NCBI GenBank assembly: GCA_001023575.1
Contig: CP011489.1
Coordinates: 2,351,747 to 2,415,746 of the forward strand
Length of the DNA stretch: 64,000 nucleotides
Direction of reading: 5' to 3'
From: Actinobacteria bacterium IMCC26256
GTDB lineage: Bacteria > Actinomycetota > Acidimicrobiia > IMCC26256
A model generated the notes under the pieces. That model did not search any database, was not told the origin of the DNA, and saw nothing but the letters and a program-made list of their open reading frames with translations. The position numbers and the translations under genes are program-made. Below, one piece after another: positions 2,638-21,172 of this stretch. Every line of letters begins with the position of its first letter. The stretch's first letter is position 1.

Positions 2638-4140
2638 ATGCGCAGAATTACACACTGGACAAATGGGGCCCCCTATAAGACCCTCGGCACTGCGGCTCCC
2701 TCATTGCACGCGGTCCACGACCCTGTTACTGGAGCGACGCAAGCAGAGGTCGAACTAGCGAGCCGCGAAGACGTTGATTTCATTGTCTCTGCTGCGACTG
2801 CAGCAGCGGTAGCGTGGGGGCAGACCTCACTATCTCGCCGCTCGCGAGTGCTGTTCGCTTTTCGGGAACTGATGGAGGCGGCCGCCGACGACCTTGCGCG
2901 CATCATCTCCTCTGAGCACGGCAAAGTCCTAAGCGATGCGCGTGGAGAGGTTGCGCGCGGCATTGAGGTAATCGAGTTTGCCTGCGGCATCCCCCACCTT
3001 CTCAAAGGCTCCCATTCGGAGAGCGTCTCAACTGAGACAGATGTCCACTCCATGCGCCAACCCCTTGGAGTAGTCGCAGGTATCACTCCATTCAATTTTC
3101 CAGCCATGGTCCCAATGTGGATGTTCCCAATCGCAATTGCATGTGGGAATGCATTCATCCTGAAGCCGAGCGAACGCGACCCATCGGCATCTATTCGAAT
3201 TGCAGAGATTTGGAGAGATGCTGGACTCCCCGATGGGGTGTTCAACGTCATACAGGGTGACAAGGTCGCGGTTGATGCTCTGCTCGAGCACCCGAGTGTA
3301 AAAGCAATTTCATTTGTCGGCTCAACTCCAATTGCTCGCTACGTATACGAAACAGGCACGAAGCATGGCAAGCGCGTTCAGGCCCTCGGCGGTGCCAAGA
3401 ACCACATGATTGTGCTCCCTGACGCAGACCTTGAGACCGCAGCAGACGCAGCAGTTAGCGCAGGTTACGGATCCGCTGGAGAGCGCTGCATGGCCATCTC
3501 CGTAGTTGTAGCTGTCGGTGGAGTTGCGGATGAATTAGTGAGCATGATCGCTGAGCGGACGAGCATCATAAATGTAGGGCCAAGCCTCGACCCGAGCTCC
3601 GAGATGGGGCCGGTCGTCACCGGAGCACATCGTGACCGCGTTCGCGACTACATCGACGCGGGAGAGAACTCTGGGGCGACGATCGTTGTCGATGGTCGAG
3701 GAGTTGAGGTAGCAGGGAACGAAGGCGGGTTCTGGGTTGGGCCCACCCTCATCGACCATGTCACTACTGCAATGAGCGTCTACACAGACGAGATATTCGG
3801 GCCGGTCCTATGTGTCGTGCGCGTTGATACATATGAGGAGGCCGTCTCGTTAGTAGCGGAGAATCCCTACGGCAATGGAGTCGCAATATTCACGCGTGAC
3901 GGTGGAGCAGCACGCAGGTTCGCAAATGAGGTGGATGCTGGGATGGTCGGGATCAATGTTCCAATCCCCGTACCAGTTGCGTATTACTCATTCGGCGGGT
4001 GGGGCCACAGCCTCTTCGGCGATACTCATGTGCACGGCACCGAGGGCGTTCACTTCTATACACGCGGCAAGGTCGTCACTACTCGCTGGGCCGACCCGTC
4101 TACGCGCGGTACCGATCTTGGGTTCCCCACAAATAAGTAA
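2638..4140 (+). CDS. mmsA: Methylmalonate-semialdehyde dehydrogenase (acylating)
   Basis: This 500-aa CoA-acylating aldehyde dehydrogenase oxidises (methyl)malonate semialdehyde to propionyl- or acetyl-CoA with NAD and CoA, in valine, beta-alanine and inositol breakdown. The typical MmsA sequence FNFPAMVPMWMFPIAIACGN and the catalytic Cys (GERCMAIS, near residue 284) are present. The C-terminus has GGWGHSLFGD and HGTEGVHFYT, both typical of this subfamily. The start is placed at ATG 2638, where family similarity begins. In-frame GTG and TTG codons lie upstream, the TTG overlapping the previous gene. With the aminotransferase at 16370 it could also serve beta-alanine degradation. Confidence 0.9.
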   Translation: MRRITHWTNGAPYKTLGTAAPSLHAVHDPVTGATQAEVELASREDVDFIVSAATAAAVAWGQTSLSRRSRVLFAFRELMEAAADDLARIISSEHGKVLSDARGEVARGIEVIEFACGIPHLLKGSHSESVSTETDVHSMRQPLGVVAGITPFNFPAMVPMWMFPIAIACGNAFILKPSERDPSASIRIAEIWRDAGLPDGVFNVIQGDKVAVDALLEHPSVKAISFVGSTPIARYVYETGTKHGKRVQALGGAKNHMIVLPDADLETAADAAVSAGYGSAGERCMAISVVVAVGGVADELVSMIAERTSIINVGPSLDPSSEMGPVVTGAHRDRVRDYIDAGENSGATIVVDGRGVEVAGNEGGFWVGPTLIDHVTTAMSVYTDEIFGPVLCVVRVDTYEEAVSLVAENPYGNGVAIFTRDGGAARRFANEVDAGMVGINVPIPVPVAYYSFGGWGHSLFGDTHVHGTEGVHFYTRGKVVTTRWADPSTRGTDLGFPTNK

Positions 4141-4172
4141 GACCTAATAAATTAAGGCCTAATAAATAGAAG
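4141..4172. repeat. 16-bp imperfect tandem repeat between convergent genes
   Basis: GACCTAATAAATTAAG is followed directly by GCCTAATAAATAGAAG. It fills the gap between the mmsA stop and the potC stop. The AT-rich sequence contains stop codons in several frames and may help terminate both transcripts. Confidence 0.7.
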
Positions 4173-4178
4173 TTTGCG

Positions 4179-5060
4179 TTATGCCGAATCGCGCTTTGTT
4201 CGGCGAGCACTCACGAGCGTGCCAATAGCAAGTATCGAGATACTCACTAGCAGAATCATTGTCGACAGCACATTGATCTGGGGCGGTGTTGCAGTGCGCG
4301 ACTGCCCAAATATGCGCACGGGGAACGTTGTTGTGCTCGGCCCTGATACAAAATAAGTGATTATGAAGTCGTCTATGGAGAGAGCGAACGAAAGCAGCGC
4401 TGCGGCAAGTATCCCAGGGGTGATTAGTGGAAGTGTGACCCTCCAGAATGTGCGCGTCGGGTTGGCCCCAAGATCCATCGCTGCATCCTCGAGGGTCCAA
4501 TCGAACCCTCTGAGACGCGCCCGCACAGTGAGGGCTACATAGCTCACAAGAAACATGATGTGGGCGATGACAATCGTGGCGAAACCAAGCGAGAACGAAA
4601 TATTAAAGAGCAGCATCGTCGGGGCGAGAAAGAGTGTGAGTAGCGACGCACCGAGGACGATCTCGGGAGCGGTTAGCGGGAGCACCAAGAGGAAGTTGAC
4701 TAAACCTCCGCCCTTGAATCGGTAGCGCACAAGCCCAATCGCCATAAAGGTTCCGATAACAGTCGCTACAGCAGTTGAGAGCAGAGCAACTTTAAGGCTC
4801 AGGAGCAGAGCATCGACAAGGGCCTGATCCGCGAATGGATGCAGCCAGTTATCGAACGTAAATCTGTTCCAGACGGCGTTGAAACGCCCGACGGGCTGAT
4901 TAAACGAGAACGCAACGATTACGAAGATTGGGAGGAACAGATATAGGAGCCCACCAGCAGCGAAGAGGTTGATGATGAATCGGCCAAGTTTCCCTGCTGG
5001 TGACGTAACTGTTCCGTACTGCTCACGCTGCTTCTTAGCTCCGCCTACAACTGCGCTCAC
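4179..5060 (-). CDS. potC: Spermidine/putrescine ABC transporter permease
   Basis: This 293-aa inner-membrane permease of the PotC type is one of two channel subunits of a polyamine importer. About six hydrophobic segments are visible, and the EAA loop that docks on the ATPase appears as DAAMDLGANPTRTFWRVTLP. The start is GTG at 5060 and overlaps the potB stop (GTGA), with GGAG 6 nt upstream. It is the last gene of potA-potD-potD-potB-potC. The substrate (putrescine, spermidine or a related polyamine) is inferred from the family and from the adjacent aldehyde dehydrogenase gene. Confidence 0.9.
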   Translation of the reverse strand: MSAVVGGAKKQREQYGTVTSPAGKLGRFIINLFAAGGLLYLFLPIFVIVAFSFNQPVGRFNAVWNRFTFDNWLHPFADQALVDALLLSLKVALLSTAVATVIGTFMAIGLVRYRFKGGGLVNFLLVLPLTAPEIVLGASLLTLFLAPTMLLFNISFSLGFATIVIAHIMFLVSYVALTVRARLRGFDWTLEDAAMDLGANPTRTFWRVTLPLITPGILAAALLSFALSIDDFIITYFVSGPSTTTFPVRIFGQSRTATPPQINVLSTMILLVSISILAIGTLVSARRTKRDSA

Positions 5061-11113: not shown

Positions 11114-11142
11114 GCAAAGATCAGTAGGCCAAATTTGGACAG

Positions 11143-11172
11143 GCCGAATAATTTGAAATCGGCTTTATTTTT
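11143..11172 (+). terminator. Possible terminator after the aldehyde dehydrogenase gene
   Basis: GCCGA (11143-11147) pairs with TCGGC (11159-11163) across an 11-nt AT-rich loop and is followed by TTTATTTTT. The stem is short, but the T-rich tail and the position 30 nt after the stop codon fit an intrinsic terminator. Confidence 0.5.
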
Positions 11173-11174
11173 CC

Positions 11175-11219
11175 TTGTAATTGTCACACCCCTGTATTAT
11201 AATCGAACATATGTTCGAT
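11175..11219 (+). promoter_or_regulatory. Promoter with LexA (SOS) box overlapping the start codon of the HNH gene
   Basis: TTGTAA at 11175-11180 and a perfect TATAAT at 11198-11203 are 17 bp apart. An exact 18-bp palindrome, ATCGAACATATGTTCGAT, spans 11202-11219. It contains TCGAAC-ATAT-GTTCGA, the mycobacterial-type SOS box. The ATG of the HNH gene at 11211 starts at the centre of the palindrome, about 8 nt after the -10 box, so the mRNA is probably leaderless. LexA bound here would block RNA polymerase directly. Confidence 0.8.
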
Positions 11220-12437
11220 GAACTTAAAGACATAGTTAGCCAACTCCGAGAAGCCTCCTCACGTATCGATGTCGACGTGATCGACGGGAAATCAGCCGCC
11301 GAACTGGTTCGGATCTCAGAGGATGCACGTCGTGTAATCGATGGTCTTCGCACCTCTGCCATCGGGCGAGTCGGTGCAACGGAGGCCTGGCGTGTTGGAG
11401 GCTCTAAAAACTCGGCAGAGTGGGTAGCGCTCCATACGGGTACTCCGATCTATGAAGCACAAGCCGTGGTGATACTTGCCGGTCAATTACGTCATCTCCC
11501 TCAGACTGTCGAGGCTATGAGTTCTGGAAAGATCTCTACCGCCCAGGCCGTGGAGGTAGCACGTGGTGCTGCGGCAGAGCCACATGCAGAGGAGCGCCTC
11601 TTAAACCTTGCTAAATCCTCGACAGTGCGAACCCTTCGCGATGAAGCATCACGTGTAATAGCGGCCGCCACAGACGAGGTAGAGCGCCACAAACGCATAC
11701 ATAAGAACCGTTATTTAAAAACATGGACCGACCAAGACGGTGCCTTCAATTTGAAGGCACAAATGACGGTTGCTAACGGTGCGCTTGTCATGGCTGCGCT
11801 CAAACCGTTTCAGGATGAAATCTTCAAGGCCTCCCGCAAGAGCGGTGCACATGAAAGGCCCGAGGCCTACGCAGCAGATGCTCTATTGGCACTCTGCGAT
11901 AAGGCCACCACAAAGCAGTTAAGCGAGAACGGCGGGAAAACGACTCGCCCTAACGTCGTGATGAATATTCGAGTCGATATAGATGCGCTTAAACGTGGGC
12001 ATACCGAGCACGGCGAGGTCTGTGAGATCGCTGGCGTCGGCCCGATACCAGTAGCGACTGCTACAGCGTATTTGGGAGAAGCATTCTTAAAACTCCTCAT
12101 TCTCGACGGCACAGACATAAGAACGATTGCGCATATGGGGCGCGCATTACCAGCAAAACTGCGCACTGCGGTTGAAGAGCGTGATCGTCTCTGCCAGGTA
12201 CCAACATGCGATATGACAATGGGTCTAGAGATAGATCACATCGTGCCCTTCGCTGAGGGTGGCGCTGCATCACTTGAGAACCTCGTGCGGCTATGTAAAC
12301 GTCATCACCTTCAGAAAACACATGACGGTTACCGCCTCATCAAGCGAGTAGGTGGGGGCAGTAGTGGTGAGGCTCCAGTCGTCTCGGAGGCTCGCTGGGA
12401 GTGGCGAGCACCACCCGATCTCAGGGATACCGGATGA
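11211..12437 (+). CDS. DUF222 / 13E12-type HNH endonuclease
   Basis: This 408-aa protein has an N-terminal DUF222 region and a C-terminal HNH nuclease domain: CQVPTCDMTMGLEIDHIVPFAEGG, then NLVRLCKRHHLQKTH, with two Cys pairs typical of a zinc-bound HNH fold. Such proteins occur in many copies in actinobacterial genomes, including the REP13E12 family of mycobacteria, several members of which carry SOS boxes. ATG 11211 is chosen because the promoter and LexA box leave no room for an upstream start and there is no ribosome-binding site. It sits alone between the dehydrogenase and biotin genes, which suggests a mobile or recently inserted gene. Function in the DNA-damage response is inference. 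Confidence 0.85.
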   Translation: MFDELKDIVSQLREASSRIDVDVIDGKSAAELVRISEDARRVIDGLRTSAIGRVGATEAWRVGGSKNSAEWVALHTGTPIYEAQAVVILAGQLRHLPQTVEAMSSGKISTAQAVEVARGAAAEPHAEERLLNLAKSSTVRTLRDEASRVIAAATDEVERHKRIHKNRYLKTWTDQDGAFNLKAQMTVANGALVMAALKPFQDEIFKASRKSGAHERPEAYAADALLALCDKATTKQLSENGGKTTRPNVVMNIRVDIDALKRGHTEHGEVCEIAGVGPIPVATATAYLGEAFLKLLILDGTDIRTIAHMGRALPAKLRTAVEERDRLCQVPTCDMTMGLEIDHIVPFAEGGAASLENLVRLCKRHHLQKTHDGYRLIKRVGGGSSGEAPVVSEARWEWRAPPDLRDTG

Positions 12438-12533
12438 CGCGAGCCCATCTATTGAGTTATGCAAGAAAATCAGGGACGAGAGAAATGGAAGCAGAGGTGC
12501 TGCATATCTCCATACGTGCAGACTCAATACCTC

Positions 12534-12559
12534 TACATAGGTAGGGTACATAGGTAGGG
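12534..12559. repeat. 13-bp perfect tandem duplication upstream of bioA
   Basis: TACATAGGTAGGG occurs twice head to tail, followed by ACCCCC. The duplication lies in the gap between the HNH gene and bioA. Confidence 0.85.
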
Positions 12560-12585
12560 ACCCCCTTTCATTGAGCACCTACCCT

Positions 12586-12612
12586 CACAGTTTCCCTGGT
12601 AACTAAACTGTG
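12586..12612 (+). promoter_or_regulatory. Inverted repeat upstream of bioA, candidate biotin operator
   Basis: CACAGTTT (12586-12593) and AAACTGTG (12605-12612) form a perfect 8-bp dyad with an 11-bp centre, about 45 nt before the likely bioA ATG. The position at the head of the biotin operon fits a repressor site for BirA, BioQ or a similar regulator. The arms are not a clear match to the consensus of either, so the regulator is unknown. Confidence 0.45.
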
Positions 12613-12657
12613 GGGCAGTTCAAACCATTTAGCGGCTCACCCCGTAGCATCGTAGGT

Positions 12658-21156: not shown

Positions 21157-21172
21157 TCGAACATTTGTTCGG
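21157..21172. promoter_or_regulatory. LexA-box-like palindrome upstream of tRNA-Lys
   Basis: TCGAAC-ATTT-GTTCGG differs by one base from the SOS consensus TCGAAC-N4-GTTCGA. It lies about 70 nt upstream of the minus-strand tRNA-Lys and just after the DUF2252 gene. Confidence 0.5.

Follow-up and report, generated by a model that had tools for sequence, protein, structure and literature searches.

Dispersed DUF222-HNH genes in an actinobacterial genome: a family with a predicted LexA operator at the start codon and indications of gene conversion between copies

The window, that is, the whole stretch of DNA considered here, comprises 64 kb of the genome of the freshwater actinobacterium IMCC26256 (2,461,858 bp; genome G000). 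On its plus strand, an open reading frame of 408 amino acids (11211..12437) encodes a protein with DUF222 and HNH domains, and is preceded by a compact control region at 11175-11219. The -10 hexamer TATAAT (11198-11203, plus strand) ends 7 bp upstream of the ATG (11211-11213). A perfect 18-bp palindrome, ATCGAACATATGTTCGAT (11202-11219, plus strand), covers the end of the hexamer and the first codons; its core, CGAACATATGTTCG (11204-11217), carries the actinobacterial SOS consensus CGAACN4GTTCG, and its dyad axis lies between CAT and ATG. Thus, the start codon is placed at the centre of a predicted LexA operator. The original prediction had described a perfect TATAAT, a 17-bp spacer and an 18-bp palindrome with a central ATG, and these elements are found in the window at the positions it gave. 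It did not see that the identical block heads 29 paralogues.

A protein search of the genome finds 29 loci with 63-100% identity over near full length (63-85% for the paralogues), dispersed through the 2.46 Mb. All 29 copies start at the centre of CGAACATATGTTCG, and the geometry of block and start codon is constant. A blast comparison of up to 1.5 kb on each side detected no sequence shared by the flanks, and no repeat longer than 8 bp occurs between the copy ends; thus, the duplicated or mobile unit seems to consist of the promoter/operator block of about 30 bp and the open reading frame.

Alignment of the 29 copies shows which parts of the control region are maintained. The -10 hexamer is conserved as TAnAnT (T100 A100 T62 A93 A45 T100 %), and its distance to the ATG is the same in every copy. 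The original prediction had taken TTGTAA (11175-11180, plus strand), which does lie 17 bp from TATAAT, as the -35 box. Its positions (-36 to -31) are only weakly conserved (72, 45, 52, 86, 62 and 45%), and this hexamer is unlikely to be the principal upstream element. The invariant element is TGTCACACC (11182..11190, plus strand; TTGTC is at 11181-11185), which has the form TGTC[A/C]CACC at -29 to -21 and falls inside the assumed spacer. Positions conserved in all copies are TGTC (-29 to -26), CACC (-24 to -21), TTA (-14 to -12), -8 and the entire 16-bp TCGAACATATGTTCGA, while from -37 outwards no position exceeds 59%. Since the -10 hexamer ends at -8, the predicted transcription start is the A of the ATG or a position no more than 1 nt away. 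The invariant block of the 29 copies has no Shine-Dalgarno sequence and, together with the constant spacing, this favours the leaderless start within the operator that had been proposed. The invariance of the block may partly stem from gene conversion itself rather than from selection.

The genome contains 39 matches to CGAACN4GTTCG, compared with 3 to the reversed pattern (about 0.08 expected per 64 kb), and two exact sites lie within the window. The 39 boxes comprise 29 at the start codons of the family, one at a truncated family remnant (2017515) and nine elsewhere, eight of which adjoin SOS genes. These eight are found at recA (866102), between lexA and a divergent LysM gene (two boxes, 878478 and 878511), and at ruvC, radA, imuA', dnaE2 and an exonuclease/GIY-YIG gene. 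Pfam backs the RuvC, IMS, Pol III alpha and RNase_T/GIY-YIG assignments; the names radA, imuA', dnaE2 and LysM were assigned from sequence and context. LexA is encoded once in the genome (PF01726, 5.3e-26). The occurrence of the identical box at recA, lexA, ruvC, imuA', dnaE2 and radA supports the predicted LexA site, and the start-codon palindrome is very probably a LexA box. By the count of perfect boxes, the SOS regulon of IMCC26256 would consist mostly of one nuclease family.

The ATG of ruvC is likewise central in its LexA box (CGAACCCATGTTCGAT, MFDPQGPIIGIDPG; L221, G000:C1:1029469-1029482). The ninth box outside the family, CGAACATTTGTTCG, is the second one in the window (21158-21171); it lies about 74 bp upstream of a tRNA-Lys gene (21084-21011, minus strand), has no evident SOS gene beside it, and adjoins a hairpin-like repeat. 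A copy of the family, L043, separates imuB from dnaE2 in a region where additional SOS boxes precede imuA' and dnaE2 (L223, G000:C1:723305-727087).

The invariant upstream element resembles a second class of damage-responsive promoters. The RecA-NDp motif has been published as tTGTCRgtg-8 nt-TannnT (PMC5656591), and dual control of recA by LexA and PafBC is known (PMC8223512). The family promoters share with RecA-NDp/PafBC promoters the TGTC, the 12-bp distance and the TAnnnT; this spacing, TGTC-N12-TAnnnT, is present in all 29 copies and occurs once in the window. The same spacing, as TGTCACA-N9-TAnnnT, is also found at the recA (TGTCACAGGCTTCACATAACTT) and radA (TGTCACAGCCCTACGCTACGCT) promoters of this genome, which also encodes a pafB-pafC pair (HTH_PafC 8.3e-22, adjoining a WYL/WCX protein). 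Unlike RecA-NDp promoters, all 29 copies of the block have CAC in place of gtg (with A at the R position in 76%), and a LexA box lies immediately downstream, over the start codon. As the gtg part is unmatched, the element is best named RecA-NDp-like and would not be a member of the RecA-NDp class.

The block is found beyond this genome. In two draft genomes of the same genus, G001 and G003, it is perfect in 21 of the 23 loci with a judgeable 5' end; L090 has TCAAAC, L094 is truncated at its 5' end, and five other loci are cut by contig ends. No family copy was detected in a further genome of the genus, G002, which is 79% complete. Seventeen more distant homologues (L056-L072, of which at least L056 and L067 are without 5' ends) have a strict box in seven cases within the searched range. 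Two of these boxes are centred on the ATG (L065 and L069, the latter from G037), and five lie upstream of the aligned start (L057, L058, L060, L061, L070), in most cases flanked by a TTGACA-like -35 and a -10 sequence.

Of the 58 genomes searched in the order, 10 have a box centred on an ATG, and the reversed control gives none. Eight matches lie outside the genus. Three are starts of DUF222-family genes (L184, L186 and L194; L186 opens 102 codons), confined as family matches of this pattern to G025 and G023. Two belong to one 354-amino-acid ORF, which we take to be release factor 1, and the remaining three open at most 19 codons. ATG-centred boxes are therefore not an order-wide trait: they occur in 10 of 58 genomes, and only three of the eight matches outside the genus belong to the family. 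The non-family matches show that such a 14-mer can fall on a start codon by chance. Given the upstream boxes and the family matches in other genomes, LexA control seems to predate the fusion of operator and start codon, and gene conversion within one genome is not the only reason for its persistence.

Comparison within the genus shows that copies are gained or lost at some sites. The G003 copy L081 lies in a 2.1-kb segment (2757-4925), together with a 153-aa ORF on the opposite strand; an exact direct repeat of 28 bp flanks the segment and is present once in G000. The site of the G001 copy L090 spans about 3 kb, against about 62 bp in G000, and that of L088, also in G001, is reduced to a 34-codon remnant in G000. 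The empty sites in G000, those of L081 and L090, could be deletions. At the site of the window gene (11114-12630), G003 has the gene, and G001 and G002 have a class III aminotransferase-like gene (assigned by reading) between the same neighbours. Among 40 G003 contigs, no empty site for an IMCC26256 copy was found, which is uninformative because filled sites tend to end contigs there. The left flanks of L037, L079 and L090 carry a repetitive protein gene, seen as diverged repeats that recur roughly every 165 bp. The metagenome-assembled records CAMDSG (L073, L074 and others) are labelled Bifidobacterium breve; they are of the same genus as IMCC26256 and the label looks wrong.

Many sites are common to several species. 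Nine loci of G003 and ten of G001 share at least one flank with an IMCC26256 copy (L093, with one side at 79%, was left out of this count). Trees were built with FastTree and midpoint rooting from 50 full copies of three genomes, one complete and two drafts, after the partial copies L091, L094, L095, L096, L098, L099 and L100 had been dropped. Full genes of different species group by site at eight of the 12 shared sites, the exceptions being s30, s38, s45 and s46. Grouping by site is seen at 10 of the 12 sites for the last 350 or so alignment columns, at four for the first 450, and at four for the middle 400. The shift can be followed along individual pairs. In L083/L046 and L087/L045, flank identity is 78-96% per 50-bp bin up to the block, except for outermost flank bins at 38 and 66%, and drops to 42-62% just within the gene; in L074 and L084, the change starts 50-150 bp further upstream.

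Background identity between copies that are not site-mates is 59-81% along the gene (699 pairs), with a 95th percentile of 87%. In the last window, the 3' ends of L074, L083, L084 and L085 are 87-92% identical to their site-mates in IMCC26256, and that of L087 is 79% identical. The retained 3' ends thus lie above the mean, yet no more than reach or slightly exceed the background 95th percentile, so that it is the tree support for these sites (0.955-1.0) that carries the claim. Most sites are shared between species, yet several of them carry different 5' modules, and this indicates ectopic gene conversion; a conversion joint in or close to the promoter block would leave such a pattern. The right flanks of L097/L042 and L099/L039 are 99.9% and 99.0% identical between G001 and G000, where most others are at about 86-97%; recent interspecies exchange or cross-binning could produce this.

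The protein itself has two recognisable parts. The HNH domain (PF01844, 1.4e-7; residues 334-371) is present in 34 of 35 members, with a cysteine/histidine set that is invariant in 35 sequences, and its pattern is found in all 29 IMCC26256 copies, one of which (L032) has an internal TAG. The DUF222 assignment is weaker for the window protein: its first 165 residues alone match at 5.3e-5, with 23.1 bits against a curated cut-off of 24.4, and the full-length sequence has no DUF222 match at E 0.001. DUF222 is above the cut-off at 20 loci of the genome, and 22 of 28 N-terminal pieces match. Together with the SOS box, these matches favour the link between a DUF222/HNH protein and DNA damage that had been proposed from the window sequence. 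The median dN/dS is 0.126 and the highest 0.229 (375 of 378 pairs of IMCC26256 copies, L032 having been dropped; dS between paralogues is near saturation, with a median of 1.5), and nine pairs of site-mates give 0.089-0.194. The protein is under purifying selection.

The AlphaFold model of residues 1-165 has a pLDDT of 95.1 and a pTM of 0.85. The full-length model is weak over the HNH region (pLDDT <50 at 291-357), and only the N-terminal model was interpreted; the full-length model yields the same fold families. In a VIA comparison, the first 14 rows are ParB, Noc, Spo0J and KorB chains, with Z from 10.2 to 6.5 and rmsd of 2.3-3.8 over 95-107 residues, and the best unrelated chain has Z 6.2. 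Helical folds give middling Z by chance, which tempers the likeness. Foldseek returned no significant E-value (probability 0.99, E 0.39), and ParB families and chains are absent by sequence at E up to 10. The modelled domain at residues 36-152 would therefore have a ParB/Noc-type helix-turn-helix fold likeness and not membership of a ParB family. It shares this fold with the DNA-binding domain of ParB, Noc and KorB, and differs in being joined to an HNH domain and in having no sequence-level match to them. For DUF222, a domain of unknown function, a fold of this type points to a role in DNA binding that can be tested.

Taken together, we consider it likely that these genes form a dispersed family under LexA control at the start codon, with gene conversion between copies. 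LexA would occupy the end of the -10 hexamer together with the transcription start and the first codons, so that repression would need no separate leader. Upon DNA damage, LexA would be cleaved and a PafBC-type activator may act at the TGTC; leaderless mRNAs starting at the AUG would then be made from all of the approximately 29 copies together. The ParB/Noc-like domain might find DNA and the HNH domain nick or cut it. As the comparison between species suggests, copies would mostly keep their fixed sites and swap 5' modules by ectopic gene conversion. DNA damage would be expected to switch on the whole nuclease set at once.

The regulation appears more secure than the biological role, be it selfish conversion, repair or defence. 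The most likely role, to which we give somewhat less than an even chance, is that of a partly selfish, recombination-promoting nuclease family that is expressed only while RecA-dependent repair is active. It is also quite possible that the copies are a host nuclease set for DNA repair or replication restart that arose by ordinary duplication and was retained because a high copy number helps the cell after damage, with conversion as a by-product of similarity. The dN/dS of about 0.13 among copies and 0.09-0.19 between site-mates, the many sites common to several species, and the control shared with recA, radA and ruvC all agree with this; strong purifying selection and the long sharing of sites are as compatible with a host function as with a selfish one. 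However, 29 divergent scattered copies would be unusual for a repair enzyme, and the family looks dispensable, given that none was detected in G002 (79% complete).

A role in defence or suicide, where DNA damage from a phage or an induced prophage lifts the repression of all copies and the nucleases then break down foreign DNA or that of the cell itself, seems unlikely. SOS control would suit it, and an HNH nuclease of Mycobacterium smegmatis has been reported with programmed cell death (PMC9416677). However, the copies are dispersed single genes with no common partner in their flanks, and the defence-system matches are weak, the best PADLOC match (0.0052) covering the HNH part only. Other classes were also rejected. 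The unit has no terminal repeats, shared flanks or transposase domain that would mark an insertion sequence. As to a phage gene, the exact block has 0 matches in IMG/VR, and a profile scan found one locus, in the HNH part only.

It is tempting to speculate that the operator/start block is also read by the family's own ParB-like domain and that the nucleases drive conversion there, an idea to which we give little weight. SOS-induced DUF222 nucleases would bind or cut the shared seam, convert about 30 loci and swap their recognition modules. If true, this would be a damage-switched, self-propagating conversion network in which a single 16-bp sequence combines operator, start codon and recombination joint. 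The palindromes that ParB/Noc-type domains recognise measure about 14-16 bp. This length, together with the central AT at -2/-1, which is invariant in 29 of 29 copies and varies in the LexA boxes of host genes, could even mean that the palindrome serves the DUF222 domain or another regulator, its SOS likeness being coincidental. That is improbable, since CGAACN4GTTCG also heads recA, lexA, ruvC, imuA', dnaE2 and radA, and since the distant DUF222-HNH homologues L057, L058, L060, L061 and L070 have the box upstream. Translation from the in-frame TTG at 11181, with an open frame of 418 codons and the palindrome as internal coding sequence, is hardly credible: the additional residues would have to be read from the promoter, conservation stops near -36, and the ATG and -10 spacing are invariant.

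For the preferred reading, a LexA-controlled family whose copies exchange sequence, several known systems offer a comparison. Free-standing HNH homing endonucleases are also stand-alone HNH genes at scattered sites, with empty sites in relatives. The IMCC26256 genes differ from them in having neither intron nor intein, and in the absence of a common target sequence from the 29 flanks. The lexA gene of Mycobacterium tuberculosis is leaderless, with translation starting at the transcription start, and in the available text of its description the start codon is not located within the SOS box (PMC2897130); here, in contrast, ruvC and the 29 family copies have the start codon at the box centre.

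The closest kin are the mycobacterial 13E12 proteins. The HNH endonucleases and REP13E12 elements of M. tuberculosis presumably belong to the same DUF222 family as the IMCC26256 copies. Like these, 13E12/REP13E12 form a multi-copy family with an SOS link and gene conversion. In M. tuberculosis, SOS boxes precede 15 genes, and five putative HNH endonucleases depend on RecA for induction by mitomycin C (PMC8151990). A preprint counts 87 gene conversion events in REP13E12, which places these loci among the most strongly converted, and describes them as having no defined biological function (PMC13061034). The link between SOS, HNH and conversion is thus already known in kind. The fused operator and start codon, the 29-copy number and the module exchange across species were not found in a search of the 13E12/DUF222 literature that spanned LexA, SOS, gene conversion and homing, with older mycobacterial LexA-regulon papers outside its span. 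Unlike 13E12/REP13E12, the family in IMCC26256 has 29 copies in 2.46 Mb and holds about three quarters of the perfect SOS boxes; all 29 operators are fused to the start codon, with a RecA-NDp-like element within the same 30 bp; and 5' modules differ between species at shared sites. Questions of interest are what function 13E12/DUF222 proteins have, why they are linked to DNA damage and whether conversion among them is driven by their own nuclease. With 29 near-identical promoters at different sites, IMCC26256 offers a natural system for probing these unexplained proteins.
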